Assembly (NCBI GenBank): GCA_947501845.1
Contig: CANMXP010000029.1
Location: 1-47,791 of the forward strand
Reading direction: 5' to 3'
DNA: 47,791 nt
Source of the DNA: an uncultured Flavobacteriaceae bacterium
GTDB lineage: Bacteria; Bacteroidota; Bacteroidia; Flavobacteriales; Flavobacteriaceae
In this document: piece after piece, positions 22,503 to 47,791 of the stretch
How positions within the stretch are numbered: position 1 is the stretch's first letter
How the letters are laid out: each line of letters begins with the position of its first letter
Made by a program: the position numbers and the translations under genes
Notes under the pieces: generated by a model
Databases searched by the model: none
Told to the model about the DNA's origin: nothing
What the model saw: the letters and a program-made list of their open reading frames with translations, nothing else

Positions 22503-22505
22503 AAC

Positions 22506-28693: not shown

Positions 28694-31600
28694 ATGAAAA
28701 AAAGAATTACTAAATCGACTAGATGGTATTGTTTTGTAGCAGTACTCTATCTATTTTGTACACATGTCGTATTGGCTCAAGAGCAAAGTATTTCTGGTAC
28801 TGTTTTAGATGAAAACAATGTCGGAATTCCTGGAGTGAATATTCTGGTACAAGGAACCAATAAGGGAGCAGTGTCAGATTTTGACGGGAAGTTTAAAATA
28901 AATGCCTCCTCAGGAAGTACACTGGTCTTTTCATATTTGGGATATAAAACACAAAGTCTTGTTTTGGGGAGTAGAACAACAATTACTGTAACAATGGTTG
29001 CAGATGTGGAACTATTGGATGAATTGGTTGTTGTAGGATACGGTGCCCGAAAAAAATCTGATTTGACAGGTTCTGTGTCAACAGTAAAAGGAGAGTCGTT
29101 AACCGTGGCTCCAATGGCTAACCTTTCAGCTGGACTTTCAGGTAAATTAACAGGGGTAGTATCTTCTCAACAAACAGGGCTACCTGGTTTTGATAATACC
29201 ACAATTAGAGTAAGAGGTACGAGTACATTAAATAATAATAGTGCACTTATTATTGTTGATGGCGTAGAAAGACCTTTAGGAAGAATTAACCCTAACGAAA
29301 TTGAAAGTGTTACGGTGCTTAAAGATGCTGCTTCAGCAGCTATATATGGTGCAAGAGCAGCGAATGGTGTTATTTTGGTAACAACCAAAAGAGGTGGAAA
29401 CCGTAAAGCAACCTTTAATTTCTCAACAAGCTATGGTATACAAACCATATTGAATTCTCCACAAATGATGAATTCTTTACAGTTTGCTACTCATTTTAAT
29501 GAGGCTCAATTAAATTCTAATCCTAATTTAGACCCATCGGGTTTAAGGTTTTCACCACAAGATATTGAGGATATTAGAAATGGTTTAATACCAGATACAA
29601 ATTGGTATGATGAGGTAGTGCAAAATAATGCACCTATATTACAACATAATCTAACGATTGATGGAGGCAATGAAAAAACAGGTTATTTCCTTTCTTTTGG
29701 ACATTTAGATCAAGAGGGGCTTTATAAAAGTTCTAGCTTTAAATCATACAGTATTCGTTCTAATATAGACACAAAAATTGGTGAAAACTTAACCATTGGT
29801 TTAGATGTAGTAGGTAGATTGGAAGAAACCACAAATAGTGCCTTTGAAGGTTTGAATGATGACCCTACCAGAACAGATTTTGCTACATGGTCAATATTTG
29901 CAGCTGTAGGTAATGGTATTCCAACATTTGCACCTTATGTTGATGGTGATGGAGACGGAGAAGTTGATGACCTAGGTTTTGATGGAAAAATAGACTCTGC
30001 TATTGGTCGTGCAAATCATTCAGGGCTTTACGAAAGAAGTAACAATGTATTTCAAAGTGCATTAAACTTAAAGTATGATATTCCATTTTTAGAAGGACTT
30101 TTTGCTAAAGCAAGATACTCATATGATGCATCATTTAACAACAAAAGAGCTTTTAAAACACCGTTTACTTATTACCAACCAACCAGCGCAGGATTTAGCG
30201 TTGCCGAAAGTGCACCATCGCCTTCATTAACAGAAAACAGAGGAACTTGGAACCAAAGAACAGCACAATTTAGCTTGGGCTATGATAAAGAGTTTGGAAA
30301 AAATAAAATTGGGGCACTATTATTATATGAGCAAGTTGAAATAACCTCAAGTAACTTAGGAGCATTCCGCGATGGGTTCTTAGGAACAGCTATCGACCAA
30401 TTCATTGCAGGATCCGAGGAAAATGCATCTAATAGTGGATCGGCCAGAGAACGAGCTAGGATAGGATATGTAGGTAGGGTTAATTACGATAGGGCTGGTA
30501 AATACTTATTTCAGGCTAATTTTAGATATGATGGCTCACATAGATTCGCTAAATCTAATCGATTTGGTTTCTTTCCAGCCGTTAGTGCAGGATGGAGAAT
30601 TTCGAAAGAAGACTTTTTTCCTCAAGATGGGGCTATTAGTAACTTAAAGCTAAGAGCTTCTTGGGGTAAGTCTGGTAATGATAGATTAAGAAACGGTGAT
30701 TTTCAATATTTATCTCAATTTGATATCAAACCTTCTGTGTCTGCTTTAGGAGGAAGCACTAGAACAGGAATAAGCGAATCGATCCTATCTAATCAATCAG
30801 TAACATGGGAAGAGGCCGTAGGGTCTAATATCGGGTTTGAATTAGGTCTATTAAACAACAAAATAGGTTTCGAATTTGATTATTTTACTAAAGACACAAA
30901 AGATATTCTAATAGCGGCCACTGGTAACACACCAGATACTTTTGCTGGACGTTTGCCTGAGTTAAACCTTGGAGAAACAAAAAGTAATGGTATTGAAGCC
31001 GAAGTTAGATATTCGGATAATTTTGGAGACTTTAGTTTAAATACATCTGCTAATGTTACTTATGCAACTAGTGAGGTTGTTAATATAGCTGAAGCCGAAA
31101 ATGTTAATCCTTGGTATAAGCTTACAGGACAGCCAATAGGTGTAGAGCGTGGTTTGGTTGCACTTGGTCTTTTCCAATCTAGGGAAGAGTTAGATAATTC
31201 TCCAAGGCAAGATCAGGATGACGTCAATCCAAATTCTACACTGTTTCCAGGAGATATAAAATATCAAGATGTCAATGGAGATGGTGTTATTGATGGAGAC
31301 GATAGAACCATTATTGGTAAAAGTGATCTTCCAGAAGTGGTTTTTGGCTTTAATCTAAATATGCAATACAAAGGTTTTGGGCTTGTAGCAAATTTCCAAG
31401 GAGCTACAGGGTTTACAAGATACATTGAATATGTGCCTTTTTCGGTTGAATCCAATTCCAGAGCAGCATTGGTAGACTCATGGAGACCAGGTAATGAAGG
31501 TGCAAGATTTCCACGATTAACAGTAGGAGGTACAGCAAATAACAGTTTAAGATCTAGCTTTTGGCTAAACGATGTTACTTATTTCAGGTTAAGAAATGTA

Positions 31601-31792
31601 CAGTTGTCGTATACATTGCCAAGTACAGCGCTTGAATCTGTAGGAATCGATAGTGTTAGACTACATTTATCTAGTACAAATCTATTTACTTTAACAAACG
31701 TAAAAGATGTAGATCCAGAAGGGCCTTCAACAGAACGTCCTTATTACCCACAAATGAAGTCTACTACGTTTGGCGTTAACATAACCTTTTAA
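28694..31792 (+). CDS. susC: SusC/RagA-family TonB-dependent outer-membrane transporter
   Basis: A 1032-aa TonB-linked porin that imports oligosaccharides together with its SusD lid. Signal peptide to about VVLA/Q (29). Then a carboxypeptidase-regulatory-like domain (ISGTVLDENNVGIPGVNILV, ~32-110), the SusC TonB-region hallmark LLDELVVVGYGARKKSDLTG, and a plug domain with GARAANGVILVTTKRG. The 22-strand barrel ends in ...STTFGVNITF with terminal Phe. It has no N-terminal STN domain, so it does not signal through an anti-sigma factor, in line with HTCS control. DVNGDGVIDGDDR is the usual Ca-like loop of the family. susD begins 11 bases after its end. The transported glycan is inferred only from the locus. 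Confidence 0.97.
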   Translation: MKKRITKSTRWYCFVAVLYLFCTHVVLAQEQSISGTVLDENNVGIPGVNILVQGTNKGAVSDFDGKFKINASSGSTLVFSYLGYKTQSLVLGSRTTITVTMVADVELLDELVVVGYGARKKSDLTGSVSTVKGESLTVAPMANLSAGLSGKLTGVVSSQQTGLPGFDNTTIRVRGTSTLNNNSALIIVDGVERPLGRINPNEIESVTVLKDAASAAIYGARAANGVILVTTKRGGNRKATFNFSTSYGIQTILNSPQMMNSLQFATHFNEAQLNSNPNLDPSGLRFSPQDIEDIRNGLIPDTNWYDEVVQNNAPILQHNLTIDGGNEKTGYFLSFGHLDQEGLYKSSSFKSYSIRSNIDTKIGENLTIGLDVVGRLEETTNSAFEGLNDDPTRTDFATWSIFAAVGNGIPTFAPYVDGDGDGEVDDLGFDGKIDSAIGRANHSGLYERSNNVFQSALNLKYDIPFLEGLFAKARYSYDASFNNKRAFKTPFTYYQPTSAGFSVAESAPSPSLTENRGTWNQRTAQFSLGYDKEFGKNKIGALLLYEQVEITSSNLGAFRDGFLGTAIDQFIAGSEENASNSGSARERARIGYVGRVNYDRAGKYLFQANFRYDGSHRFAKSNRFGFFPAVSAGWRISKEDFFPQDGAISNLKLRASWGKSGNDRLRNGDFQYLSQFDIKPSVSALGGSTRTGISESILSNQSVTWEEAVGSNIGFELGLLNNKIGFEFDYFTKDTKDILIAATGNTPDTFAGRLPELNLGETKSNGIEAEVRYSDNFGDFSLNTSANVTYATSEVVNIAEAENVNPWYKLTGQPIGVERGLVALGLFQSREELDNSPRQDQDDVNPNSTLFPGDIKYQDVNGDGVIDGDDRTIIGKSDLPEVVFGFNLNMQYKGFGLVANFQGATGFTRYIEYVPFSVESNSRAALVDSWRPGNEGARFPRLTVGGTANNSLRSSFWLNDVTYFRLRNVQLSYTLPSTALESVGIDSVRLHLSSTNLFTLTNVKDVDPEGPSTERPYYPQMKSTTFGVNITF

Positions 31793-31803
31793 AATAAACA
31801 ATA

Positions 31804-33513
31804 ATGAGAAAGATAAACATATTAATAGTCGTTTTTTGCCTGTTTTCAATAGTAGGCTGTCATGACGATCTTGATGTAGAAAACAAGTCTGGGATTAGTT
31901 CTGATGCCGTTTTTTCAGACGAAGGATTAGTAGAAGCGTTCCTTTACACACTCTACTCGTATACAGGAGTAGATTATATGCGAGGTATAGGTGAGATAGG
32001 TAGTGATGGAGGTTCTAACCGCCTTTATAACAACACATTCCATTTGGCTTCGATTACAGATGAAGCTAGGGCAAAAAGTGGTTGGGTAGGAGCGAATAGA
32101 AATGTTGCGCCAGGGAATATATCTCCAACTAATAATGCAGGTTTAGAGCCCAATTTTTGGAGAAATTGCTATAGAGGTATCAGAGAGTGCAGTACGATGG
32201 TAGAAGGACTGAAGGATTCAAGCTTGGAAGCAACATTTGTAAGTCAAATGAGTGCAGAAGCCAGATGGTTAAGAGCTATGCTTTATTTCGAATTGGTGAG
32301 AAGATATGGTGGCGTGCCATTAATTACTGCACCACAAGGTATAGATGACGATTTATTAGTATCTCGTGCTACTGCTGATGAGGTATACGATTTTATTTTT
32401 TCAGAGTTAGAAGCAGCAGCAGCAGATTTGCCATCTGTTAATGATGGTGCTGCAAGAGATCGAGCTAATAAAGAAGGAGCTTGGGCACTAAACGGGAGAG
32501 CTATGCTGTATGCAGAAAGATGGGCACAATCTGCAACACTTTCTAAAAGAGTTATTGATGCTGGTATGGAATTATCTCCAGATTATAATGCCTTGTTTAG
32601 ATCATATGGAGGCGACCCAGAAATACTTTTTGAAGTGCGTGTTGAAGTGGGGACTTTTGCTCATGGCTTAGATAAATGGAACTGGCCACTAGGTTATAGA
32701 AGTGAAGCAGGTGGACAAACAAATCCAACACAAGAGTTTGTAGATTCCTATGAGACTACCGATGGGTTACCTATTAGCGATCCGCTTTCTATTTATGATC
32801 CTAACGACCCTTATGCAAATAGAGATCCTAGATTTGCAGCTTCAGTTGGTTTTCATGGAAACCCTTGGGGTTTAGCGCCAAAAACAGGGATAGACAGACT
32901 GGATATCGAATTTATTATTGGTAGAGATGGATTGAGGAATCCAAACGATGGAAATGATACGCAAACGGGGTATTACCTTAAAAAATTCATGGATCCATCT
33001 TTAGGGCAAGATCCAGATAGAGGAGCTAGTAAGACATCTTTCAAGCACTTAAGGTTTGGAGAGGTATTACTAAACTATGCTGAAGCTAAAAACGAAGCAG
33101 ATGGTCCAGATCAAAGTGTGCATGACGCGATCAATGAAATTAGAAGTAGACCAAGTGTGAATATGCCAAATATTCCAGCTGGTTTGGATAAAGATGAAAT
33201 GCGAGAAAGAATTCGTCAGGAAAGAAAAATTGAGCTGGCTTTTGAAACACATCGTTGGTATGATTTGATTAGATGGAGAATAGCTGAAGACGTTTTAAAT
33301 GGTAAACAGTTCCATGGCATGAGAATAACTAGAACAACTCCTGTACCAGACCCGTATGAGGCTGAGTACGATCCTGCAAATTTAGTTTACGACCCTACAT
33401 TTGTTGTAAGTACTACGGTACCTCAGGTGTTTTTACCACATTTTTATTTGATGCCTATCCCTCAATCGGAAATTGATAAAAATGTAAATTTAACTCAAAA
33501 CCCAGGATACTAA
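31804..33513 (+). CDS. susD: SusD/RagB-family surface glycan-binding lipoprotein
   Basis: A 569-aa lipoprotein with lipobox IVGC (Cys19) followed by acidic residues (CHDDLD), a surface-export type of sequence. The family features are present: an N-terminal tetratricopeptide-like helical part with AEARWLRAMLYFELVRRYG, the mid stretch LRFGEVLLNYAEAKNEA, and the ending RQERKIELAFETHRWYDLIRW ... PIPQSEIDKNVNLTQNPGY. It pairs with SusC 11 bases upstream to form the lidded uptake complex. A strong terminator follows, so the susCD message ends here. Confidence 0.97.
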   Translation: MRKINILIVVFCLFSIVGCHDDLDVENKSGISSDAVFSDEGLVEAFLYTLYSYTGVDYMRGIGEIGSDGGSNRLYNNTFHLASITDEARAKSGWVGANRNVAPGNISPTNNAGLEPNFWRNCYRGIRECSTMVEGLKDSSLEATFVSQMSAEARWLRAMLYFELVRRYGGVPLITAPQGIDDDLLVSRATADEVYDFIFSELEAAAADLPSVNDGAARDRANKEGAWALNGRAMLYAERWAQSATLSKRVIDAGMELSPDYNALFRSYGGDPEILFEVRVEVGTFAHGLDKWNWPLGYRSEAGGQTNPTQEFVDSYETTDGLPISDPLSIYDPNDPYANRDPRFAASVGFHGNPWGLAPKTGIDRLDIEFIIGRDGLRNPNDGNDTQTGYYLKKFMDPSLGQDPDRGASKTSFKHLRFGEVLLNYAEAKNEADGPDQSVHDAINEIRSRPSVNMPNIPAGLDKDEMRERIRQERKIELAFETHRWYDLIRWRIAEDVLNGKQFHGMRITRTTPVPDPYEAEYDPANLVYDPTFVVSTTVPQVFLPHFYLMPIPQSEIDKNVNLTQNPGY

Positions 33514-33680: not shown

Positions 33681-34907
33681 ATGAAATTTAAACAATCAAA
33701 GCACCCTTTTTATATATTATTACTAATCTGTATTGTAATAGTTGGGTGCATACAATCAGGAAAAGCTAACCAAAAAAAACAGAAGTTACAGCAAGAGAAA
33801 AGTTTTACGATAGAGGATCAAATTTTAGCAGCTGAAAAAAACTATAAATTACTGGTTAATAATGCAAGAAAGGCAAATAATATTCCAAGATCACTAGAAA
33901 AAAATGCCATTAAATGGATTCATAATGGTTTTGATTGGACAGAAGGCTTTTTTCCAGGTTCGCTTTGGTATATATATGAGCTAACTAATAATGAGAAATG
34001 GAAAAAAGAAGCTTTATATTTTCAAGAGTTAAATTTTGACGATCGTTTTGCTTCTAGTCACGATTTAGGTTTTGTTTTTCAGTGTTCTTATGGTAATTCA
34101 TTTCGGTTAACAAAAGCAGAACAAAATAAAACAGCTCTAATTGATGCATCCAATGCTTTAATTGGTCGTTTTAATGAAGCAGTTGGTTGTATTAAATCAT
34201 GGGATGTAGATAGTGGATGGCAGCAACAAAGAGGTTGGCAATACCCCGTAATAATTGATAATATGATGAACTTAGAGTTATTGTTTGAAACGTCTCTGCT
34301 AACAGGTGAAGATAAATATAAAGACGTAGCTATTTCACATGCCAATACCACATTAAAAAAACACTTTAGAGAAGATAACAGTTCGTACCATGTCGTAGAT
34401 TACGATTCTATTACTGGAGTTCTAAGGTCTAAACAAACTGCACAAGGGCATGCTCATAATTCTTCTTGGGCTAGAGGTCAGGCCTGGGGACTTTATGGAT
34501 TTACAGTTTGCTATCGTTACACTAAAAAGCCTGAGTATCTCACTCAAGCTAAAAAAATTGCAGATTATATTTTAAGTAATTCCACAGTTGCAAAAGAAAA
34601 TATTCCTTATTGGGATTATAATGCTCCTAATATACCAAATGAACCAAAAGATGTTTCGGCGGCAACAATTACAGCATCTGCTTTAATTGAATTAAGTCAA
34701 TATGCCGATAAGAAATATCTCGATAAAGCAAAAAGTATTATTGAAACATTATCAACAGATGAATATTTTGCAAAACCAGGAACCAATGGGAATTTTTTGC
34801 TTAAACATAGTGTAGGAAGTATACCTCATGGGGCAGAAATTGATGTTCCGTTAAATTATGCAGATTATTATTATTTGGAGTCTCTAGTAAGACTAAGGAA
34901 GTTATAG
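33681..34907 (+). CDS. GH88-family unsaturated glucuronyl/galacturonyl hydrolase
   Basis: A 408-aa lipoprotein (lipobox VVGC-like, Cys23, no acidic residues after it, so probably periplasm-facing). The (alpha/alpha)6 barrel of GH88 is recognisable: WTEGFFPGSLWYIYEL, HDLGFVF with D128, IIDNMMNLELLF with D193, and the hallmark SSWARGQAWGLYGF. D128 and D193 correspond to the two catalytic aspartates of unsaturated glucuronyl hydrolases. The enzyme hydrates the 4,5 double bond left by polysaccharide lyases and releases the uronate. Its presence implies that a lyase acts on the PUL's substrate, fitting the two beta-helix genes downstream. It follows the susCD terminator and needs its own promoter. 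Confidence 0.9.
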   Translation: MKFKQSKHPFYILLLICIVIVGCIQSGKANQKKQKLQQEKSFTIEDQILAAEKNYKLLVNNARKANNIPRSLEKNAIKWIHNGFDWTEGFFPGSLWYIYELTNNEKWKKEALYFQELNFDDRFASSHDLGFVFQCSYGNSFRLTKAEQNKTALIDASNALIGRFNEAVGCIKSWDVDSGWQQQRGWQYPVIIDNMMNLELLFETSLLTGEDKYKDVAISHANTTLKKHFREDNSSYHVVDYDSITGVLRSKQTAQGHAHNSSWARGQAWGLYGFTVCYRYTKKPEYLTQAKKIADYILSNSTVAKENIPYWDYNAPNIPNEPKDVSAATITASALIELSQYADKKYLDKAKSIIETLSTDEYFAKPGTNGNFLLKHSVGSIPHGAEIDVPLNYADYYYLESLVRLRKL

Positions 34908-35307: not shown

Positions 35308-37875
35308 TTGACAAACCTGACTTTAAAAGCGCAAACGGTATTTTTTTTAGCACTTATACTAACCTTAAGTAAAGTGGGAAAGCTAAATTCACAAGAAATC
35401 AATCCTTTAACCTTGTGGTACAATAGTCCAGCAGAAGAATGGATGGAAGCTTTGCCAATTGGAAACGGGAGTTTTGGAGCTATGATTTTTGGGCAACCAA
35501 AAAAAGAAACTATAAGATTAAATCATGATGAGTTTTGGTCTGGATATCCTAAAGATATTACAAACCCCAAGGCGCTTCAATATAAGGACCAGATAATTAA
35601 TTTAGTTGCCAATAGGCAATATACAAAGGCTAATGCCTTAATTAAGAATATGCAAGGCCCTTTTACACAGTCTTATCAGCCCCTTGGAGATCTTATACTG
35701 GAAATGAATCATACGAAAGCTGTTAGTAATTACAGGCGTACTTTAGATTTGTCCAAGTCTGTAGCCACAGTTAATTACACAACCAATGGAGCAGATTTTA
35801 AAAGAGAAATATTTTCAAGTTATCCTGATAAAGTCATAGTAATCAAACTATCTGCATTAAAAGGAGGGGAATTGGATTTTAACTTAAGTTTTACCTCTAA
35901 AGTAAAATATAAAACTGCAATAGAAAATGACGCCCTAGTATTAACAACAAAAGCAGCTAAACATGTAGAGCCAAATTATAGAACTGGGTTTGCCGATACT
36001 GCCGCTATTATATATGATGATTGGGATGGCGAGGGAATGGAAGCACAGGTGCGATTAAAAATAATTGCTCCCCATTCTAAAATAGCTAAAGTTGACAAGG
36101 CATTGAAAGTGATAGGAGGTACAGAGGCCACTATTATTTTATCAGGTGCTACAAGTTTTAATGGGCCTTTTAAATCTCCAGGCTTAGAAGGGAAAGATTA
36201 TGTGAAAATTGCTAAAAATGATTTAGATAAAGCATTAAAAAAGGGGGTTAAAAAGCTTAAAAAGAATCATCTCGAAGATTATCAAAATTTATTTAATAGA
36301 GTAGCAATTCGATTAGGAGATACCAATACAAATTATAAGAACCCCACCAACGAAAGGATTATAGCATTTAAAAAAAATCAAGATCCCTCTATGGTGGCTC
36401 TGTTGTTCCAGTATGGTAGATATTTGCTTATCTCTTCTTCTAGGCAAGGAGCTCAGGCAGCGAATCTTCAAGGTATATGGTCAGAAAAAGTGCGTCCGCC
36501 ATGGAGCAGCAATTTTACCCAGAATATTAATGTACAAATGAACTACTGGCCAGCTGAGGTTTGTAATCTTTCAGAGTTAACAAGCCCTTTAATGAACCTT
36601 ATTAAATCAAATGCAATAAAAGGACAGGGTGTAGCAAAAGCGAACTATGGTTTAGATGGATGGGTGTCTCATCACAATGGAGATATCTGGGCACATTGTG
36701 CTCCAGTAGGAGATTTTGGAACAGGAGCTCCAAGATGGGCTAATTGGGCATTTGGAGGTGTTTGGTATTCCAGTCACATTTATGAACATTTTCTTTTTAC
36801 AGGAGATGTTGAATTTCTTAAGGAATATTATCCAATTATGAAAGGTGCTGCAGAATTTGTTATAGGAATGCTGCATGAAAATAAAAATAAAAAACTCGAA
36901 ACAGGCTTTGGAACCTCACCAGAAAATGCCTTTATAGATCCAGAAACAGGGGAAGCTGTAGCTGTTTGTGCAGGACCAGCTTCAGATTTGGCCATGACAA
37001 ATGAGTTGCTAAACAATTGTTTAAAATCATGCGAAATTCTTAATGTTGACGAAGCATTTAGAAATAAGTTAAAAAGTATAATTCCAAAATTACAAGAATT
37101 TAGAATTAACAGTAATGCCATATTAATGGAGTGGAATGAAGATTTTAAAGAAACAGATTCAGAGCATAGGCATTTAAGTCATTTGTATGGCTTACACCCA
37201 GCAAACCAAATCAATGCCTGGGACACGCCAGAGTTATTTGCGGTCTCTAAAAATTCGCTTTTAAGACGCGGAGACGAAGCTACGGGGTGGTCTATGGGCT
37301 GGAAAACCAATATGTGGGCGCGAATGTTAGATGGCGATCATGCACATAAAATTATCAATAATATGTTTTCGCCTATATCATTTAAAGGTGTTGAATTTAC
37401 AGGAGGGGGGCTCTATACAAATATGCTTGATGCCCATCCGCCCTTTCAAATTGATGGGAATTTTGGTGTCACTGCGGGCATAGCAGAAATGTTGTTGCAA
37501 AGCCATAGTGGCGCGATCCATTTACTGCCAGCCTTACCTCAAAATTGGTCTGCAGGAGAAGTAAAAGGTTTAAAGGCACGGGGTAATTTTGAAGTAGATA
37601 TAGAATGGTTTGAAGGAAAATTAAAAACAGCTCTAATAAAACCGCTTATTGGAGGAGCATGTCGTATTCGTTCAGAATGGCCTTTACAAATTGATGGAGG
37701 CAAATTAGTAACAGAATTAGAGCATAATAACCATTTAATGCATACAACCAAGGTACCTAAACCTAGACTCTTAGGAATCACTCAGGTAAAATCAAGTCAT
37801 TTGAAAGGATATTACAGTTATAATGTAGTTACAGTGCCAAATAAGCCAATCAAAATTAGTTTGAAGGTTGAATAA
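35308..37875 (+). CDS. GH95-family alpha-L-fucosidase / alpha-L-galactosidase
   Basis: An 855-aa secreted enzyme starting at TTG: an in-frame TAA is 15 bases upstream, no ATG precedes the signal peptide, and the TTG gives a proper signal sequence ending LNSQ/E. GH95 is clear from [53 protein letters not shown] and [17 protein letters not shown]539 (SPEN) and D716 (DGNFG) match the catalytic general acid and its partner region in characterised members, with the Asn pair of NINVQMNYW for water activation. It removes terminal L-fucose, or L-galactose in some members. It begins the downstream enzyme run; 22 bases separate it from the beta-helix gene. Confidence 0.93.
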
Positions 37876-37921
37876 TTGAAATAAACTTGTAATTTTAATG
37901 GAATTTAGATTAAGAATATCA

Positions 37922-39592
37922 ATGGTATCTAGGGTTAAAATAAGTATGGCTATTATTTTTTTTGTCATCGTTTCATCTTGTAAAGGGCAAGAAAAGGCTC
38001 AAATCTGGCAGACTTATGTATCCCAAAAATCTGCTGGGAAGCCAACTCCAATAATAGATTATTCTTATGCAGGGTATGCTTTTGGAGAAACAGGCATACC
38101 AAATAGTACCGTATTAAATTATCCAATTTTTGATGTAACTTCTTTTGGGGCGGTTGCCAATGATACTATTGCTGACGGTTTTGCAATAGCAAAAGCAATA
38201 AAAGCAGCCGAAAAAAACGGTAAAGGGATCGTTTATTTTCCTAAAGGTAGATTTATCGTTAATAAAGGAGAACATACTAGAGGATTTGAAATAAATAGTT
38301 CAAATATAATTTTGAAGGGAGCAGGAGCAGGTCCAGAGGGTACCGAGATTTTTATGCAAGATTATATGAAACATGACAAAAGCTTGTTCAAATGGACTTC
38401 TCCATATATGTTTACTTTTAAACCTGAAAATTTAAATGTCGATACGTTTTGTTCAACAAACCTAGCTGGTAGGCCTTATTCTTATACTTCTAAAATAGTT
38501 AAAGACTCTAAATTAGGTTCTAAAACCATATATGTTGAAAATGCTAAACAGTTTATAGGTCAAACACATATTATTTTGGTCATGCCATATAATAAAGAAT
38601 CAATGGTTGATTTTATGGGGGATTTAGAAACAAGACCACAATGGGAGCGAATCAATAATAAAGGAATAGCAGCAAATGAAATACACAAAATAGTATCAAT
38701 AAAAGAAAATGTGATAACTCTTGAAAAACCTTTGTTAACAGACGTGAAAAAGAAATATGGCTGGTATATAGCACCCCATGAAGTTATTGAAGAGTGTGGT
38801 TTTGAGGATATTCATTTCATTGGTAATTTTCAGGAAAGTTTTGTACATCATAAAAATCAAATTCATGATGGGGGTTGGAAAGGTGTAAAAATGGCTCACG
38901 TATCTAATGGTTGGATAAGCAAATGTGTATTTTCAAATGTTAATAGTGCTGTAGCGATTGTAGGTAGCATAACAACTTCTGTAATGATGAATATTATAAA
39001 TGGTAAGCAAGGTCATGGATCTGTTGAAATGACTTTTGGTACAAGAAACTTTGTCGGTTTATGGAAAGATGATACAGACAAAGGTCAATGGCATGGTATA
39101 GATGCATCTCATCTAGCAGCTGGAAATGTTGCATGGCGTATATATGCTCCAAAAGGAAGAGGGTTCGATTTGCATTCAGGAAATACAAGACAAACCCTTT
39201 ACGATTGCTACGAAGGATACAATATGAGTGGGCATGGTGGAAACTATAAAATGGAGCCTCACCATTTAAAAGGGTTCACATTATGGAATTTTAAGCAGTA
39301 CGGACCAGCGGTAACAAATTATGATTATTGGTCATTACAGCCACGAGAAGATAACTCAAAAAGTCCTTATTGGGGATTTGCAATTACAAATCCTTATATT
39401 ATAGGTTTTCATGGAACTAGTACAACATTTAATGAAGCCAATTTAGGTTATGTTGAGAGTGTTGGAAAGAAAGTGCTGCCAGAATCATTGTACGAAGCAC
39501 AGCTAGCTTATAGGGTAGGAAAACGTCCAGATTGGATTGACGAAGTATTAGAAACATGGAAAAAATGGCATAAAGAAGTTGGTAAAAAGTAA
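37922..39592 (+). CDS. beta-helix lipoprotein, pectate-lyase-superfamily, candidate polysaccharide lyase
   Basis: Numbered from ATG 37922, which gives a clean lipoprotein signal (IVSSC, Cys20); ATG 37898 is eight codons upstream. Residues ~60-120 carry the Pectate_lyase_3 entry motif: VTSFGAVANDTIADGFAIAK then GKGIVYFPKGRFIVN. The later body forms a right-handed beta-helix with conserved HH-K and DGGW and several His/Trp (GIDASHL, HSGN, GFHG). The arrangement looks DUF4955-like, an uncertain memory. It is a clear paralog of the gene at 43627, and the two bracket the haloperoxidase fusion. A lyase role would explain the GH88 gene; hydrolase or epimerase is the alternative. Catalytic residues cannot be named. 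Confidence 0.8.
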   Translation: MVSRVKISMAIIFFVIVSSCKGQEKAQIWQTYVSQKSAGKPTPIIDYSYAGYAFGETGIPNSTVLNYPIFDVTSFGAVANDTIADGFAIAKAIKAAEKNGKGIVYFPKGRFIVNKGEHTRGFEINSSNIILKGAGAGPEGTEIFMQDYMKHDKSLFKWTSPYMFTFKPENLNVDTFCSTNLAGRPYSYTSKIVKDSKLGSKTIYVENAKQFIGQTHIILVMPYNKESMVDFMGDLETRPQWERINNKGIAANEIHKIVSIKENVITLEKPLLTDVKKKYGWYIAPHEVIEECGFEDIHFIGNFQESFVHHKNQIHDGGWKGVKMAHVSNGWISKCVFSNVNSAVAIVGSITTSVMMNIINGKQGHGSVEMTFGTRNFVGLWKDDTDKGQWHGIDASHLAAGNVAWRIYAPKGRGFDLHSGNTRQTLYDCYEGYNMSGHGGNYKMEPHHLKGFTLWNFKQYGPAVTNYDYWSLQPREDNSKSPYWGFAITNPYIIGFHGTSTTFNEANLGYVESVGKKVLPESLYEAQLAYRVGKRPDWIDEVLETWKKWHKEVGKK

Positions 39593-39598
39593 ATTCTT

Positions 39599-42500
39599 AT
39601 GAAAGTCTCTCTCGTTTTAAAATTTGTTTTAGGATTCATTGTAACGAGCCAGGTCGTTGCACAAACATTTCATCGGTCGGAAGTCAATGCTGGCTTAGGA
39701 ATATTATCTGAAAATAATGGTGTTGCTGTAGCCGATTACGATGGAGATCATGATTTGGACTTATTTGTTGTGGCCAAAGCAAAAGATAATAATAGTAAAG
39801 AAATAAGTAAGAGTAGACTGTTTAGAAATAAAGGTAACGGCCAATTTGAAGATGTTACCGAACTTTCGGGCTTGGTAAACTTGTTTCCTTCCAGTGAAAC
39901 AGCAGATTTGTTTGCAGGTCTCGATGGTATAAAGTACGGCGCTTCATGGGGAGATTATGATAATGATGGATTCCCAGATATATTTTTTACCCATTCATTC
40001 AAAATTCAACTTTTCCATAATGAAGGTGATGGTACGTTTATAGAAAGAACGATTGAGGCTGGTTTCGAAAAATACAATTCATGTAGAAATACAAGCGCAA
40101 CATGGTTTGATGTTAATAATGACGGATTTTTAGATATATACATTTCAGATTGGGGAGGCTGTACCAATAATAGCTTTTATATTAATAATGGAGATGGCAC
40201 ATTTAATAATGTTACAAATCAATTTGGAGATGATAATACTAAATTGTCCTATATGAGTGTCCCTTTCGATTTTAATGATGACGGATGGATGGATTTATAT
40301 GTAGCAAATGATAAGAATGAACCCAACGAACTTTTTATAAATAACATGGGTATTGGCTTTGAGGATAAAGCAAGTGAATACAGCGTTAATAATTTTGGGG
40401 ATGATATGGGTATTGCGATTAACGATTATAATAACGATGGTCTTTTTGATTTTTTTGTAACTAATATTGGAGAAAATATACTACTAACCAATCAAGGTAA
40501 TAACACATTCGTAGATGTTGCTATTGGAGAAAATATTAGTAATACAGGTTGGGCATGGGATGTGAATTTTGCCGATTTTGATTTAGATGGCGATGAAGAT
40601 TTATTTGTGGTAAATGGCTTCAGTGCTACAGAATATAATGCGTATTTTAAAAACTTATTGGTAGAAAGCGGTACGGGTTTTTCGAATATTTCTGAACAGG
40701 TGAACCTAAGGGACCTAACAAAAAGTGTAGGATCTACACCATTTGATTATGACAATGACGGAGATTTGGATTTATTCATAACCAATACAGATAGAGCATC
40801 TTTCTTTTATGAAAATCATATTATTAATGAAGTGTCCCCAACTAACCCTCATTGGTTTAAAGTGATATTGCAGGGGACTACATCAAATAGAAATGCCATA
40901 GGAACTAAGCTTACTATAACCACAAATCAAAGTACTGTACATAGATATTATACAGGTCTTGGTTTTCTATCACAAAGTATACTACCTGTTCATTTTGGCT
41001 TGGGAGATGTTTCTTCTATCTCAGAATTAAAAATTGAATGGCCGTCTGGACTTGTAGAGATTCATAACAATTTAGATGTAGATACCCATATTCTAGCAGA
41101 AGAAGGGAATGGTTATACCGTTCTAAACCTTCCAGATGTTAACAAAATAAGAGGATGTACAGACCCTAGTTCTTGTAATTACAACCCAGAAGCAGTTATA
41201 GATAATGGTACATGTACTTATCTGGAATCTAAAGAAATTTCAGGTAAACTAAATGCAAATAATTTAACCACCGAAGTATATGCTTATCCAGTTGCAAACG
41301 ATTCAGAACTTAAATGGTCGGTCTCAGGAGGTAAAATTATTGATAAACGGGCAAATTCAATTACAGTAGAGTGGGGTATTGGGCCTCTGGGTGAAGTTTC
41401 GGTTGTTGAATCAAATTCGACGTGTTCCACACAACCTATTAGACTCGCCGTAAATTTTTCGATTTCTGATGATTATTCGATAGCAAGAATTTGGAATGAA
41501 GCATTATTGCAAGCCATTCGGAACGATTATGCGCGACCAACCGTACATGCTAGAAATCTTTTTCATACCAGTATAGCTATGTACGATTCTTGGGCAATTT
41601 ATGATGAAAAAGCCAAGCCGTATTTAATTGGAAACCAAGTACAGGGTTTTAATAATACATTTAACGGTTTTCAGATAGGTGAAAATATAGAAGAAGATAG
41701 GGATAAAACGATTAGCTATGCAGTATATCGTTTATTGAATCATAGGTTTAAAAACTCTCCTAATAAGGAAGCCACTTATGAAATATTTAATGCTATAATG
41801 AACAATTTAGGATATGATGCCAATGACGATTCAACAGACTATTCAAACGGAAGTCCTTCGGCTTTGGGCAATTTCATAGCAAAAACAATTATAGATTATG
41901 GCCTAATTGATGGATCTAGAGAAGTGAGAGATTACGATAATTCGTTTTATTTACCAATTAATGCACCTTTAGCACCAATTGTTTCTGGAAATGATAATAT
42001 TACAGACCCTAATAGGTGGCAGCCTTTAAGTTTAACCCAATTTATAGATCAAAGTGGAAATTTAGTGGATGGCAGTACACCCGATTTTTTGAGTCCAGAA
42101 TGGGGTGCTGTTAATCCTTTTGCACTTCAGGAGAGCGATAAGAAAACCTTTTCCAGAGATGGAGACGATTATACGGTCTATCATAATCCAAATACACCGC
42201 CTCAATTAAATGTTATGTCTAATGATGTTTCAAGCGAAGCCTATAAATGGGGATTTTCTTTAGTGTCTATTTGGGGGGCTCATTTAGACCCGTTGGATAA
42301 TGTCATTTGGGATATTTCTCCAAAATCTATAGGTAATATAAGCATCGATAATTTCCCTTCTAATTATACAGAATATCCTAATTTTTATAAGGATGTTGAG
42401 GGTGGTGATATTTCGGGAGGGCATTTAGAAAATCCACATACTGGAGCCCCTTACGAGGAACAACTAGTGCCTAGAGGTGATTATGCACGCGTTTTAGCCG

Positions 42501-43585
42501 AATTTTGGGCAGATGGCCCTGATTCTGAAACGCCACCAGGACATTGGTTTACATTATTAAATTATGTAAGTGACCATAGTTTATTTACCAGGAAACTTAA
42601 TGGGAAAGGAGATGCTTTAGATGCATTAGAGTGGGATGTGAAATCATATTTTATAATGGGAGGCACGATGCATGATGCAGCTATTGCTGCTTGGGGGATA
42701 AAAGGTTGGCACGATTACATTAGACCCATTTCGGCTATACGTTACATGGCTGAATTAGGACAGAGCAGCGACTCTGCACGAGACAATTATAATATTGCAG
42801 GAATACCTTTAAAAGAGGGCTATATAGAAGTGGTAGAAGAAAATGACCCACTAGTGGGAAATAATTCTGAACATCTTGGGAAAATAAAATTATATACATG
42901 GAGGGGACATGACTATATTGGTAATCCAGAATCTGATAATGCAGGTGTTGGTTGGATTTTAGCTGAAAATTGGTGGCCCTATCAGCGACCTAGCTTTATT
43001 ACACCTCCATTTGCGGGCTTTGTGTCTGGACATTCTACTTACTCTAGGGCAGCAGCAGAAGTTATGACCTTGTTAACTGGTGATGCATTTTTTCCAGGAG
43101 GCTATGGCGAGTTTATAGCAAGAAAGAATGCGTTTTTAGTCTTTGAAGAAGGCCCAAGTATAGATGTTAAATTACAATGGGCGACTTATAGGGATGCATC
43201 AGACCAATGCAGCTTATCAAGAATTTGGGGAGGTATCCACCCGCCAGCAGACGACATTCCTGGAAGGCTTATTGGTGAGCAAATTGGGGTTGATGCTTAT
43301 GAGTTTGGTGTGCAATATTTTGAAGGGAAGGTAAATGGTAACCAAGAAAGTACAGATTATACCATATATCCAAACCCTATGATTGAAAACACATTATACG
43401 TGACCAATACGAAGGCATCTGATGTTTTTCAAGTATTTGACTTGAAAGGGAGTTTCATTCCAATAGTAGAGATATCTTATAACGACGATACAAAAAATAC
43501 AATGCTCACTTTTTCCAATGCCTTAGTAAATAGTGTTTACCTCTTAAAAATTAATAACCATAGTAAACTTATCATTAAAAGATAG
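39599..43585 (+). CDS. FG-GAP/ASPIC-UnbV repeat protein fused to vanadium-dependent haloperoxidase with T9SS tail
   Basis: A 1328-aa secreted protein. After a signal peptide (to ~VVAQ, 22) come FG-GAP/VCBS repeats with DxDxDG-type calcium loops (DYDGDHDLDLFVVA, DYDNDGFPDIFF; ~30-400), an ASPIC/UnbV module (GLGDVSSISELKIEWPSG, ~435-505), and a cysteine module CTDPSSCNYNPEAVIDNGTC (~520-540). The vanadate-binding haloperoxidase/PAP2 set is complete: K1035-x6-R1042-P1043, S1143-G-H1145, and S1207-R1208-x5-H1214-x3-D1218. The last ~70 residues (YTIYPNPMIENTLYV ... KLIIKR) are a T9SS sorting domain for export. A haloperoxidase uses hydrogen peroxide and halide to make reactive halogen; the same fold also serves acid phosphatases. 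It sits between two paralogous beta-helix genes inside the PUL. The motifs are certain; the halide and target are not. Confidence 0.88.
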   Translation: MKVSLVLKFVLGFIVTSQVVAQTFHRSEVNAGLGILSENNGVAVADYDGDHDLDLFVVAKAKDNNSKEISKSRLFRNKGNGQFEDVTELSGLVNLFPSSETADLFAGLDGIKYGASWGDYDNDGFPDIFFTHSFKIQLFHNEGDGTFIERTIEAGFEKYNSCRNTSATWFDVNNDGFLDIYISDWGGCTNNSFYINNGDGTFNNVTNQFGDDNTKLSYMSVPFDFNDDGWMDLYVANDKNEPNELFINNMGIGFEDKASEYSVNNFGDDMGIAINDYNNDGLFDFFVTNIGENILLTNQGNNTFVDVAIGENISNTGWAWDVNFADFDLDGDEDLFVVNGFSATEYNAYFKNLLVESGTGFSNISEQVNLRDLTKSVGSTPFDYDNDGDLDLFITNTDRASFFYENHIINEVSPTNPHWFKVILQGTTSNRNAIGTKLTITTNQSTVHRYYTGLGFLSQSILPVHFGLGDVSSISELKIEWPSGLVEIHNNLDVDTHILAEEGNGYTVLNLPDVNKIRGCTDPSSCNYNPEAVIDNGTCTYLESKEISGKLNANNLTTEVYAYPVANDSELKWSVSGGKIIDKRANSITVEWGIGPLGEVSVVESNSTCSTQPIRLAVNFSISDDYSIARIWNEALLQAIRNDYARPTVHARNLFHTSIAMYDSWAIYDEKAKPYLIGNQVQGFNNTFNGFQIGENIEEDRDKTISYAVYRLLNHRFKNSPNKEATYEIFNAIMNNLGYDANDDSTDYSNGSPSALGNFIAKTIIDYGLIDGSREVRDYDNSFYLPINAPLAPIVSGNDNITDPNRWQPLSLTQFIDQSGNLVDGSTPDFLSPEWGAVNPFALQESDKKTFSRDGDDYTVYHNPNTPPQLNVMSNDVSSEAYKWGFSLVSIWGAHLDPLDNVIWDISPKSIGNISIDNFPSNYTEYPNFYKDVEGGDISGGHLENPHTGAPYEEQLVPRGDYARVLAEFWADGPDSETPPGHWFTLLNYVSDHSLFTRKLNGKGDALDALEWDVKSYFIMGGTMHDAAIAAWGIKGWHDYIRPISAIRYMAELGQSSDSARDNYNIAGIPLKEGYIEVVEENDPLVGNNSEHLGKIKLYTWRGHDYIGNPESDNAGVGWILAENWWPYQRPSFITPPFAGFVSGHSTYSRAAAEVMTLLTGDAFFPGGYGEFIARKNAFLVFEEGPSIDVKLQWATYRDASDQCSLSRIWGGIHPPADDIPGRLIGEQIGVDAYEFGVQYFEGKVNGNQESTDYTIYPNPMIENTLYVTNTKASDVFQVFDLKGSFIPIVEISYNDDTKNTMLTFSNALVNSVYLLKINNHSKLIIKR

Positions 43586-43626: not shown

Positions 43627-45186
43627 ATGAGAGCATTTTCAAGAATCTATGTATTAGTTTTTGCTATTTCATGTACTATTTGGAATTGCAAATCCCAAGG
43701 CTCTAACTTATGGGAAAACTTTAAAGAGACGAAAAAGAATCATTCAGAACCAATACTACCCGATTTCTCCTATACAGGTTATAAGTTTAGTGAGGTTGAA
43801 ATTCCTCATGTAGATTATAAAATATATAACGTCATCGATTATGGTGCTAAACCTGATGATAAAGTTTCGGATAAAAAAGCAATAAAAAAAGCAATAAAAG
43901 CGGCATCAAAAAATGGAAGTGGAATTATCTATTTTCCAAAAGGCAGATATGACATCAATACGAATGCAGATGATGAAAGCATTATTACAATTACATCGTC
44001 AAATATTGTATTTAGAGGTGAAGACCAAAAAAATACAATCTTGTTTTTTGACAGAGACTTACCTCCTGCTGACCCCAAAAAACTATGGACATGCCCGTAT
44101 GCAATCCAAGTTAAAAGTGCAAATAAAGACACTTTTATAACCAAAGTTACTTCAGATTCAAAAAGAGAATCTCATACCATTAAAGTAGATGATGCATCAA
44201 AAATAAAAAAAGGAGACTGGATTATTTTAAAAGTTTTAAATAACGATCCTGAATTGATAAATTACGATTTGGGCGGTTTAAAACCAGATAAAGAATGGAC
44301 TTCTATTTTAAAAAAAGGGGTAAAAGTAAATGAGTATCATCAAGTAGCATTGGTGATAGGGAATACCATTAAAACGGTTGCCCCAATTCATTATGATATT
44401 AAAGCGAAACATCATTGGGAAATACATGATTTCGCACATTTAGACCATGTAGGATTTGAGAATTTAACATTTGAAGGAAACTGGACCAAAAAGTTCGTAC
44501 ACCACAGATCTGCACAGGATGATGGTGGGTGGAGTATTTTAAAAATAGCTAAAGCTGTTAATTCTTGGATTAGAAGTTGCACATTCAAAAATGTTAATAA
44601 TGCTGCAAGTTTCAATCAATCTGCAAATTCGACGGCCATAAATACTACAATAGAGGGATATGTTGGACATAGTGCCATACATGCTTCACGCTCAACAGGT
44701 ATTTTGATAGCGAATTGTGTTGATAAATCAGGAATGCATCATGCATTTGGAGTCGATGGACATGCTACTGGAACTGTTATATGGCGTTCTAGCTATCCTG
44801 CTCATACATCTTTCGAATCGCATGCATCACAACCCCGTTGTACCCTCTTTGATGAAGTTGAAGGCGGATTTTTTCGAGGTAGAGCTGGAGGAGCCAGATT
44901 TAATTTGCCTAATCATGGAAGGTATCTGGTGCTCTGGAATTTTAAAGAAATTGATGAGCCAGAACACGATTTTAGGTTTGTAGCAACCAATACTTGGTTT
45001 TGGCGAATTTCGCCTCCAATTATTGTCGGATTTCATGGAGCAGGAACAACGTTTAAAAAGGATGAGGTTCAAATATTAGAAAGTCTAGGTAGCCCAGTAG
45101 AGCCTGAATCTTTATTCGAAGCACAATTAAAATTAAGATTGGGTGATCTCCCTAAATGGATAATAAGTTTAAAAAACCAGAAGTGA
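43627..45186 (+). CDS. paralogous beta-helix lipoprotein, candidate polysaccharide lyase
   Basis: A 519-aa protein with a lipoprotein-like signal (Cys16 or Cys21, TIWNC/KSQ). It parallels the gene at 37922 throughout: PDFSYTGYKFSEVEIP, VIDYGAKPDDKVSDKKAI, SGIIYFPKGRYDIN, then HHRSAQDDGGW, NVNNAASF, GVDGHATG, PPIIVGFHGAGTTF, and the ending EAQLKLRLGDLPKWI. The shared His, Asp-Gly-Gly-Trp and Gly-Phe-His-Gly features suggest a common active site. It lacks some inserts of the longer copy. One base separates its stop from the sulfatase ATG, so they are surely co-transcribed. Different cleavage preference on one polymer is a plausible reason for keeping two copies. Confidence 0.8.
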   Translation: MRAFSRIYVLVFAISCTIWNCKSQGSNLWENFKETKKNHSEPILPDFSYTGYKFSEVEIPHVDYKIYNVIDYGAKPDDKVSDKKAIKKAIKAASKNGSGIIYFPKGRYDINTNADDESIITITSSNIVFRGEDQKNTILFFDRDLPPADPKKLWTCPYAIQVKSANKDTFITKVTSDSKRESHTIKVDDASKIKKGDWIILKVLNNDPELINYDLGGLKPDKEWTSILKKGVKVNEYHQVALVIGNTIKTVAPIHYDIKAKHHWEIHDFAHLDHVGFENLTFEGNWTKKFVHHRSAQDDGGWSILKIAKAVNSWIRSCTFKNVNNAASFNQSANSTAINTTIEGYVGHSAIHASRSTGILIANCVDKSGMHHAFGVDGHATGTVIWRSSYPAHTSFESHASQPRCTLFDEVEGGFFRGRAGGARFNLPNHGRYLVLWNFKEIDEPEHDFRFVATNTWFWRISPPIIVGFHGAGTTFKKDEVQILESLGSPVEPESLFEAQLKLRLGDLPKWIISLKNQK

Positions 45187-45187
45187 T

Positions 45188-46762
45188 ATGAGTTTTAAAA
45201 TAAAGGTTTTGGTTGTATTAAGTTTGTTCTTTTTCAATTGTCAGGAGACTAAGACTCAAGTTGTAAAAGAAGAAAAGAAACCCAATGTTTTAATTATATT
45301 TCCAGATCAACTTAGAAGATATAGTGCAGGATTTTGGTCTGAGCCTCCGTACAAGCAACATGTTGTAGGCAAACCAGACCCTGTAATAACACCTAATATT
45401 GATAAACTCGCTAAAAACGGTGTGGTTTTTACACGAGCAGTTAGTAACTACCCTCTTTGTAGCCCCTATCGTGGCATGCTGATGTCTGGTATGTATCCAG
45501 AGCAAAACGGTATTTGGAACAATTGTAAAGTGGGAAGAACTCATAGTTTAAAAGATGATATAGCAACCATCCCCGATTTGTTTTTAAATGCAGGATATAA
45601 CACCTCGTATATTGGTAAATGTCATTGGTTGAAAAATGACCCGTTGTTTGATGAAAAGGGGACCTATATAGGTTCGGTAGAAGCACCAGGGGGGCATCAT
45701 ATAAATCCATACGACACATATATTCCACCAGGAAAGACACGCCATGGCATAGAATATTTTTATCAAGCTATTAAGGACGAACATTTCAATCCGCATATTT
45801 ATTCTAATGATTCAGCAGCAATTGGAGGCAAAAAAGACGGTGAATTATATTTGCCGAAAATATTTTCACCAAAAAATGAATCACAAATCATAATTAATTA
45901 TTTAAGAAATAAAAGAGGACAAAGAGATAATAATAAACCTTTTTGTATGATTTGGTCCATGAACCCTCCTCACAGCCCTTGGGATGATAAAAACACAGAT
46001 ATGGCTACTTTAAAAAAGCATTATGGTGCAGATAAATTTCCTGAGCTTAATGATAAACTATTGGTTCGTGATAATGTAGATAAAGAAGTAGGGAGCTATG
46101 TAAGGCATTATTTTGCTAACGTAACAAGCTCCGATCACTACATTGGTTTGGTAATTAATGAATTGGAAAAATTAGGAGAACTAGATAATACCATCGTGAT
46201 TTTTAGTTCAGACCATGGAGAAATGCTAGGGAGTCATGGTAAAAAAGGTAAAAATACAGTAGAAATAGAATCTACAGCTGTTCCATTTGTTGTACATTGG
46301 CCAAAAGGATTGAAGTCTGGAATTAACGATCTGCTCTTAAGTGTTCCTGATGTATTGCCAACAGCAATGGGATTGGCAGGTATAGAAAATCAAATACCTA
46401 AAGAAGTTGAAGGGACTAACTTTGCATCATTACTACAAAATGAAAGGAATAACGATGTAAAGAAACCTAAGGCTGTTTTGTTCATGTTAGGGAATTCAAG
46501 AGGTGTTTTGACCAATAGATACTCATTGTGTTTAAAAGAAAATAAAAAGCAATGGGATATGCCAGAAGCGATAAGTATCGAAGAGGCTTTTTTATATGAT
46601 AATCAAGTAGACCCCTATCAGTTAAATAAAATTGATATTGAAGAAAAGCCTAAAATTTCAAAAGAATTATTGTTAGAGTTAGCTAAACTTCTGAAAAAAA
46701 CAAACGACCCATGGTACCAAGATAAAAGATATAGTAGTATCATCCCATATGCTGAAATTTAA
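45188..46762 (+). CDS. S1-family sulfatase, lipoprotein
   Basis: A 524-aa formylglycine-dependent sulfatase with lipobox-like FFNC (Cys18). C91 in C-S-P-Y-R is the residue converted to formylglycine by the maturing enzyme. Metal and phosphate-like site features follow: LIIFPDQLRR near the N-terminus, and FSSDHGEMLGSHGKKGK (DH metal ligands with the following Lys) near residues 340-356. Length is normal. It removes sulfate from algal sugar residues before glycosidases act. It begins one base after the beta-helix gene stop and closes the enzyme operon. S1 subfamily and the sulfated sugar cannot be told by eye. The maturase gene is not in the window. Confidence 0.95.
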   Translation: MSFKIKVLVVLSLFFFNCQETKTQVVKEEKKPNVLIIFPDQLRRYSAGFWSEPPYKQHVVGKPDPVITPNIDKLAKNGVVFTRAVSNYPLCSPYRGMLMSGMYPEQNGIWNNCKVGRTHSLKDDIATIPDLFLNAGYNTSYIGKCHWLKNDPLFDEKGTYIGSVEAPGGHHINPYDTYIPPGKTRHGIEYFYQAIKDEHFNPHIYSNDSAAIGGKKDGELYLPKIFSPKNESQIIINYLRNKRGQRDNNKPFCMIWSMNPPHSPWDDKNTDMATLKKHYGADKFPELNDKLLVRDNVDKEVGSYVRHYFANVTSSDHYIGLVINELEKLGELDNTIVIFSSDHGEMLGSHGKKGKNTVEIESTAVPFVVHWPKGLKSGINDLLLSVPDVLPTAMGLAGIENQIPKEVEGTNFASLLQNERNNDVKKPKAVLFMLGNSRGVLTNRYSLCLKENKKQWDMPEAISIEEAFLYDNQVDPYQLNKIDIEEKPKISKELLLELAKLLKKTNDPWYQDKRYSSIIPYAEI

Positions 46763-47169: not shown

Positions 47170-47791
47170 TTGAAAATTAATATCTCAATATTATCAGCTG
47201 CAATCTCATTACTTTTTTTTTCTTCTTGTAACACACAAAGTGAAGTTGTTTTAAAAAGTCCAAATAATCACTATGTGTATAATTTCAAAATTAATGAAGA
47301 AGCCAATACAACAACTTATACGCTTAAATACAAAGGAAAGGATATTATAGCACCATCAGGTTTAGGGTTTGGAATTGAAGGCGTTTCTATTGAGAAAGAT
47401 GTCAAGATAGAAGCCATAGAAAAGAAATCTGTTAGCACCACTTGGAAGCCTATTTACGGAGAAAAGAATGAATACCCAGATGTATATGAAGAAACATTGA
47501 TTTCCTTATCAGGGAGTAATACAATGTTTAATCTTAGAGTTAGAGCTTATAACGAAGGCGTAGCTTTTCGATATGAGTTTCCAAAAAACAAATCTAAAAA
47601 TCAAATTAATAAAGAGTTAACAGAGTTCTCATTACCTCATGATGCGCATGCATGGAAAGCTTCAAAAGCACAAAAACCAATTGTTAAAACACTAATTTCG
47701 AAAATTACAGAAACAATAGAAAGGCCTTTATTGGTAGAGCTATCAGACTCTTTATATGCAGCTATAGGAGAGGCTGGTTTAGTAGATTATT
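47170..47791 (+). CDS. GH97-family glycoside hydrolase (partial, runs off the window)
   Basis: Starting at TTG 47170 the frame stays open for 207 codons to the window edge. The start is a lipoprotein signal (SLLFFSSC, Cys20). No ATG gives a longer or comparable signal, so TTG is preferred. The first ~200 residues are the GH97 N-terminal beta-sandwich: SEVVLKSPNNHYVYNF, DIIAPSGLGFGIEG, YGEKNEYPDVYEE and LRVRAYNEGVAFRYEFP. GH97 members are exo-acting alpha-glucosidases or alpha-galactosidases; the catalytic barrel is outside the window, so retaining versus inverting type and the sugar cannot be told. It would trim imported oligosaccharides in the periplasm. Confidence 0.85.
   Translation, partial: MKINISILSAAISLLFFSSCNTQSEVVLKSPNNHYVYNFKINEEANTTTYTLKYKGKDIIAPSGLGFGIEGVSIEKDVKIEAIEKKSVSTTWKPIYGEKNEYPDVYEETLISLSGSNTMFNLRVRAYNEGVAFRYEFPKNKSKNQINKELTEFSLPHDAHAWKASKAQKPIVKTLISKITETIERPLLVELSDSLYAAIGEAGLVDY

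Follow-up and report, generated by a model that had tools for sequence, protein, structure and literature searches.

What is a gene for a putative vanadium haloperoxidase (VHPO) doing among the glycan-degrading genes of a flavobacterium? The question is raised by a 47,791-nucleotide stretch of DNA from an uncultured Flavobacteriaceae bacterium (assembly GCA_947501845.1, contig CANMXP010000029.1), here called the window, which is the entire contig C29 of a 5.37-Mb genome and in which one open reading frame (ORF) joins FG-GAP and ASPIC/UnbV sequences, predicted to form a propeller like that of CRTAC1, to a VHPO region. The preliminary description of this DNA regarded the protein as an unusual component of a polysaccharide utilization locus (PUL) that might loosen algal wall oxidatively, detoxify peroxide or act as a phosphatase variant. 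The analysis shows a clade of VHPOs fused to a CRTAC1-like propeller, whose window copy a PUL of one Flavivirga lineage has captured, and we consider it probable that the protein as a whole is a secreted, general halide-oxidising VHPO carried on such a propeller.

The predicted fold and site residues are those of VHPOs

Similarity to the window VHPO recovered 84 homologous genes in 83 loci (80 regions fetched as high-ranking matches when the genus and the family were scanned, together with three loci from the source genome), and an AlphaFold model of residues 531-1250 was built from the 84 aligned rows. The structure prediction that the preliminary description had proposed as a check gave a VHPO-family fold, with a predicted local distance difference test (pLDDT) score of 91.3 and a predicted template modelling score (pTM) of 0.91, and all 21 matches to this model found by Foldseek in the PDB at E<=1e-3 were VHPO-family structures. 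The best of these were XhnO11 (9l8x), NapH1, NapH3 and the Zobellia galactanivorans vanadium iodoperoxidase (4cit), with template modelling scores (TMt) of 0.72-0.77 (NapH1 up to 0.77, 4cit 0.75, 9l8x 0.74). By Pfam, DUF6851 matched residues 659-809 (1.2e-12) and VCPO_2nd residues 1185-1245 (30.6 bits against a cut-off of 27).

The vanadate-binding set first read from the translation, K-x6-RP, SGH and SR-x5-H-x3-D at residues 1035-1218, lies at exactly those positions. Because all three motifs are present in 84/84 homologous genes, a chance origin of the set is excluded; W1032, K1035, R1042, P1043, F1138, S1143, G1144, H1145, R1208, H1214 and D1218 are invariant in every row. The region therefore has both the predicted VHPO fold and the K, R, S-G-H, R and H site residues in family spacing. 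This spacing equals what we take to be that of W350, K353, R360, F397, S402-G403-H404, R490 and H496 in the Curvularia inaequalis chloroperoxidase (1vnc and mutants), with which the window protein shares the W-x2-K-x6-RP, F-x6-H and R-x5-H register; the R360A, H404A and H496A mutant structures are among the Foldseek matches, although TMt is 0.50-0.55 and identity 11-13%.

The closest relatives in fold and C-terminal sequence are NapH1/NapH3 and XhnO11 (3w35/3w36, 8cxl, 9l8x; TMt 0.74-0.77, profile E 5.8e-14 for 9l8x), enzymes with a biosynthetic role, but they are only 15-17% identical and consist of 478-531-residue chains without an FG-GAP part. The Zobellia enzyme, whose biochemistry was reportedly published by Fournier in 2014, is likewise flavobacterial, and its TPPF...SGHS segment aligns well with the window protein, but it has 458 residues, 14% identity and no propeller. 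The window VHPO keeps the His of SGH, as does 4cit, whereas the aligned segment of 9l8x differs in reading SGS. In one study (PMC12871659), a catalytic Lys and Ser are linked to selective enzymes; because of this link and the retained His, the propeller-fused clade is, by analogy, more likely to be of the non-selective kind.

Within the VHPO/PAP2 superfamily, vanadate and phosphate occupy the same kind of site, and the motif set is common to both groups. A phosphatase or phosphotransferase with a PAP2-type site, which the preliminary description had listed among the possible roles, has two observations in its favor: 3bb0, a vanadium chloroperoxidase apo-enzyme performing dephosphorylation, is among the Foldseek matches, and a PAP2 profile matches a split paralogue at 8.4e-4, under the cut-off. 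We nevertheless regard this identity as very unlikely given that 21/21 strong structural matches are VHPO-family and that W1032 and F1138 are invariant in 84/84. Consistent with this, no PAP2 profile of Pfam matched the window VHPO at E<=1e-3, and no PAP2 phosphatase was found among the Foldseek matches at the same threshold. The predicted fold and the residue set together thus make a plain phosphatase unlikely.

The enzyme is fused to a CRTAC1-like propeller in many genomes

The N-terminal half contains five FG-GAP_3 stretches (2.2e-38) and UnbV_ASPIC at residues 433-497 (2.4e-15), that is, the combination of FG-GAP repeats and UnbV_ASPIC that marks the CRTAC1/ASPIC-UnbV family. In agreement with these Pfam assignments, the top PDB match of a full-length model (residues 37-1236, mean pLDDT 88.4) was murine CRTAC1 (9etn, TMt 0.70), which also matches by sequence (phmmer, 2.7e-16) but differs in being a mouse protein without a VHPO domain. 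The fusion noted in the preliminary description is therefore borne out. Of the T9SS (type IX secretion system) tail described with it, a tail-like region at residues 1256-1326 stands, but Por_Secre_tail scores 24.0 bits, under its cut-off of 27, and no NCBIfam tail matched the window VHPO at E<=1e-3; the tail of a paralogue on contig C10 of the source genome scores 32.9 bits. Judging from these sequence features, the window VHPO is probably secreted and a putative T9SS cargo. At the region of the linker and small beta domain, the C10 paralogue (L005) has a PKD_6 match of 20.4 bits, under the cut-off of 25.

As called by phmmer, which missed FG-GAP-like repeats seen by eye in L161, 63 of the 84 VHPO genes are fused and 21 unfused; two of the loci (L095 and L109) reach contig ends. 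VHPO matches were found in 7/12 genomes of the genus, which is very probably Flavivirga. Among 397 genomes of the family, 243 have a match at E<=1e-3 and 108 a strong one (E<=1e-100); in 52/397 the frame that holds the strong match is 1100 residues or longer; fetched DNA confirmed 57 fused genes in 47/397. A scan of 395 genomes of the phylum gave 87 with matches, the strong ones outside the family being mostly frames of 730-790 residues, and an FG search found no propeller in 20 loci fetched from outside the family (L161, with its repeats seen by eye, being one to note). A further scan of named genomes gave at least 580 relatives, of which the best 80 were kept; in this named set, which partly overlaps the first, 43/82 genes are fused, and the 39 unfused ones include fragments (for example, L191 VHPO334 and L220). 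The recurrence of the fusion across genus, family and named genomes rejects a one-off or an assembly artefact. Neither a haloperoxidase joined to an FG-GAP, ASPIC or CRTAC1 module nor one linked to SusD in Bacteroidetes was found described in the PMC literature.

On a tree of 105 VHPO domains made with FastTree, the only tree program used, the fusion label changes five times. Where the two parts are separate, they may still be neighbors: an FG-GAP gene lies within two genes in 9/42 unfused VHPO genes, and when 19 genomes outside the family were searched with the propeller alone, the VHPO neighbor was the genome's best FG match in four (G478, G585, G493 and G623). In the source genome, contig C17 has a split FG/VHPO pair directly behind SusC/SusD, and this SusC-SusD-FG-VHPO order is repeated in L120, L125 and L265.

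Other arrangements were also seen. Locus L087 (5139-13196) has a tandem pair of fused VHPO genes (1340 and 1339 residues) with identical VHPO domains, and their duplication is therefore recent. Outside the family, L159 (5654-13348) has two VHPO genes (1065 and 1298 residues) with the enzyme N-terminal and long C-terminal extensions. In L258 (3417-4574), a PorV-like T9SS gene lies between an FG gene and a VHPO gene. Many FG-GAP frames of ~1100 residues occur on contigs C2, C4, C7, C11, C15, C21, C30 and C31 of the source genome (G000); two fetched frames of this kind, from other genomes (L056 and L110), are found near SusC/SusD.

The window copy lies in a PUL directon

As shown in Table 1, the gene lies downstream of SusC/SusD in a directon of GH95 (glycoside hydrolase family 95), PL29-like (polysaccharide lyase family 29), VHPO, PL29-like and sulfatase genes, and thus shares a common directon with SusC/SusD-linked carbohydrate-active enzymes. 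The co-directional bracketing by two beta-helix lyase-like genes, with GH95 and sulfatase genes, is as the preliminary description had it. The two helices are relatives of BT3328, a PL29 lyase. Against the NCBIfam BT3328 equivalog, whose cut-off is 1100 bits, they score 296 and 453, the matches covering the C-terminal ~540 of its 840 positions. The SusC/SusD, hybrid two-component sensor (HTCS), lyase-like, GH and sulfatase genes of the window are those of PULs with PL29-like lyases; a PUL that contains a VHPO is not described in the available portions of the PMC literature found on haloperoxidases and polysaccharide utilization loci.

Table 1. Features of the window discussed in the text
Feature	Position	Strand	Remarks
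Hybrid two-component sensor (HTCS)	24103..28227	+
SusC-like TonB receptor	28694..31792	+
SusD-like lipoprotein	31804..33513	+
GH88-like hydrolase	33681..34907	+
GH95	35308..37875	+
First DUF4955 beta-helix, distant BT3328 relative (PL29-like)	37898..39592	+	stop 6 bp before VHPO ATG
Fused FG-GAP/ASPIC-UnbV - VHPO ORF, putative T9SS cargo	39599..43585	+	1328 residues, ATG start, single intact frame
Probable signal peptide, residues 1-22	39599..39664	+	translation read by eye
FG-GAP repeats and ASPIC/UnbV, CRTAC1-like propeller, residues ~23-505	39665..41113	+	Pfam, Foldseek, phmmer
Cys-containing linker and small beta domain, residues ~506-626	41114..41476	+	strands in predicted models
VHPO catalytic region, residues ~627-1250	41477..43348	+	model and Foldseek
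Motif 1, W1032-x2-K1035-x6-R1042-P1043	42692..42727	+	84/84 homologous genes
Motif 2, F1138 ... S1143-G1144-H1145	43010..43033	+	84/84 homologous genes
Motif 3, S1207-R1208-x5-H1214-x3-D1218	43217..43252	+	84/84 homologous genes; H1214 ligand role by analogy
T9SS-type sorting tail, residues 1256-1326	43364..43576	+	Por_Secre_tail 24.0 bits, cut-off 27
Second DUF4955 beta-helix, BT3328 relative (PL29-like)	43627..45186	+
Sulfatase	45188..46762	+
GH97 N-terminus	47170..47790	+	truncated by window (contig) end

The order helix, VHPO, helix, sulfatase, for which a synteny search had been suggested, is kept in part. The window arrangement is kept in 3/12 genomes of the genus (the window, L052 and L053), and in all three the VHPO start follows the stop of the first PL29-like gene after the same 6-bp junction. 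L053 keeps the window directon except GH95, with the VHPO gene again between two PL29-like genes. In L052, what is kept is the VHPO gene with the first of the PL29-like genes, and GH97 lies further along.

Elsewhere in the window, an ABC exporter, an HlyD-like gene and an outer-membrane efflux gene (19406-23912) lie directly 5' of the PUL sensor gene. A KAP-type NTPase gene (9666-12158) lies in an A+T-rich stretch, possibly a mobile or defence island; the G+C content of the window is lowest, 26%, at 10-12 kb.

PUL membership is not a trait of the family

Across the relatives, SusD lies within seven genes of the VHPO gene in 20/83 loci (19/105 tree rows by phmmer) and in 7/82 genes of the named set. 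Within 6 kb it was found in 15/83 loci, the window itself having 6.1 kb, compared with 5.1 expected from genome-wide SusD counts (simulated P 0.00014); in SusD-rich genomes the figure was 11/27 versus 3.2 expected, and in the remainder 4/56 versus 1.9. Rows that are related to each other (L052/L053/window; L120/L125) do not count as independent. The glycan enzymes beside other VHPO copies vary: sulfatase and GH3 (L056), PL11 and GH2 (L065), DUF2264 (L080), GH81 (L105), GH20 and GH2 (L120), and GH92 (L216). In L054, the VHPO gene adjoins porphyranase-like and DUF5060 genes, and no SusD was found in the 20 kb of this locus. It is unlikely, in our estimate, that marine Bacteroidota use the propeller-VHPO as a portable "halogen module" plugged into PULs for unrelated glycans; in such a module the propeller would dock, and the oxidative attack would proceed by halide oxidation, not through copper as in lytic polysaccharide monooxygenases.

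The SusCD-linked VHPO copies of L058 and L078 adjoin redoxin/thioredoxin-like genes. A cluster of proteins of 386-475 residues is encoded near fused VHPO genes in L057, L058, L060, L064, L074 and L078, some with SusC/SusD; the two members scanned, those of L058 and L078, are redoxin/thioredoxin-like.

Settings of other kinds are also shared. Pyruvate-dehydrogenase-like E1/E2 genes are common to 17 VHPO loci, 15 of them fused, and overlapping sets of loci share short-chain dehydrogenase, M28 peptidase, SprT-like and nucleotidyltransferase genes. A kynureninase-like and FAD-monooxygenase-like neighborhood is common to 13 unfused copies. In the source genome, the C10 paralogue, whose VHPO region shows 73% identity, is flanked by YicC and S41 peptidase genes.

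Several observations weigh against our reading or, more narrowly, against a close link with PULs. No SusD lies within seven genes in 48/63 fused rows (15/63 have one). In a control drawn from the same 18 genomes, which are weighted to SusD-rich ones, 9/28 VHPO loci and 5/20 stretches taken at round coordinates had SusD within 6 kb (Fisher p 0.75; distance in the control stretches measured from a mid-stretch pseudo-gene). Because this control disagrees with the expectation from genome counts, we do not claim an enrichment of SusD. On the tree, the fused-plus-SusD label makes 11 changes, eight of them forced by starred branches, compared with a shuffled mean of 14.3; this pattern of many separate gains or losses is close to scatter. 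A Flavivirga PUL in genome G009 (L285) has a SusD 49% identical to that of the window, an HTCS, a GH88-like gene and a counterpart of the second PL29-like gene (972 bits), but neither a VHPO nor GH95 nor a counterpart of the first PL29-like gene was found in the 16.7 kb read, and the sole VHPO match of G009 is on a different contig. Other points concern the protein itself. NapH3, a top structural match, is titled a VHPO homologue catalysing a rearrangement, and the VHPO fold alone is therefore no proof of halide oxidation. The domain orientation is uncertain in the full-length model: because its pTM is 0.64, the relative placement of propeller and VHPO halves is not fixed, and a reading of domain packing from it was dropped as not interpretable. 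Pairing with FG genes is weaker in the named set (3/39 unfused VHPO genes), and in 15/19 genomes outside the family the best FG match does not lie beside the VHPO gene. No dedicated source of H2O2 was recognised among the annotated neighbors, which are part of all neighbors, and no activity, metal or halide data for clade members were found in the PMC literature.

PUL membership as a family-wide trait is rejected by the SusD counts, the tree and the same-genome control, and the related PUL of L285 rejects the idea that a window-type PUL must include the VHPO. The preliminary description had thus recognised a real PUL setting for the window copy, but the enzyme is not PUL-specific. Scatter away from PULs, which it had set against its own proposal, is largely what the family shows, because of the SusD counts, the E1/E2 loci, the C10 paralogue, the same-genome control and the VHPO-free related PUL, but not what the window copy shows. 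Overall, the family-wide evidence argues for the propeller-VHPO as a general tool of marine Bacteroidota and not a dedicated glycan enzyme.

An alternative is that the VHPO serves as an oxidative arm of the PUL. It would then attack the matrix that bears the glycan, by halogenation or cleavage of phenolic cross-links or by oxidation of sugars, and so open the polymer to the PL29-like lyases and the sulfatase. The position of the gene, which in both the window and L053 has a lyase-like gene on either side, the junction kept in three genomes and the porphyranase-like, PL11, GH81, GH20 or GH92 genes near other copies would fit this alternative, but the SusD-free fused rows, the wide variation among glycan-enzyme neighbors, the related PUL without a VHPO and the same-genome control speak against it, and we judge it unlikely.

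Proposed role of the enzyme

By analogy with characterised VHPOs, H1214 would bind vanadate, K1035, R1042, S1143, G1144 and R1208 would hold it in place, and H1145 would act as the acid-base. The enzyme would use H2O2 to oxidise halide, giving hypohalous species or iodine, either at the cell surface or beyond it. The propeller, a calcium-loop module, would probably anchor the enzyme or dock a partner.

In one Flavivirga lineage, a copy of the VHPO gene appears to have been inserted into a PUL directon, and this copy is therefore probably produced when the glycan is sensed. There, the enzyme would most likely either dispose of peroxide and halide met on algal or detrital material or modify phenolics attached to the polymer. 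A study of Zobellia (PMC9296495) describes upregulation of vIPO3 with A. nodosum and presents the detoxification of reactive oxygen species as important in macroalgae degradation.

A diffusible hypohalite could also destroy the signals or cells of competitors and so defend the sugars released by the PUL. Both the SGH of the window protein, set against the SGS of the aligned biosynthetic enzyme (if this difference is tied to a diffusible product), and the wide spread of the enzyme across lineages would agree with such a role, but direct evidence for it was not found and no self-protection gene was recognised among the annotated neighbors, and we consider it highly improbable.

Implications

The results describe a large clade of VHPOs, with at least 580 relatives and no characterised member found, that carry a fused CRTAC1-like propeller or, in some cases, have one encoded next to them. 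If these proteins are active, then secreted halide oxidation would be a widespread trait of marine Bacteroidota, relevant to the cycling of iodine and bromine in the sea and to the bacterial response to algal oxidative defence. The copy embedded in the PUL of the window offers a direct genetic test of halogen chemistry in glycan use.

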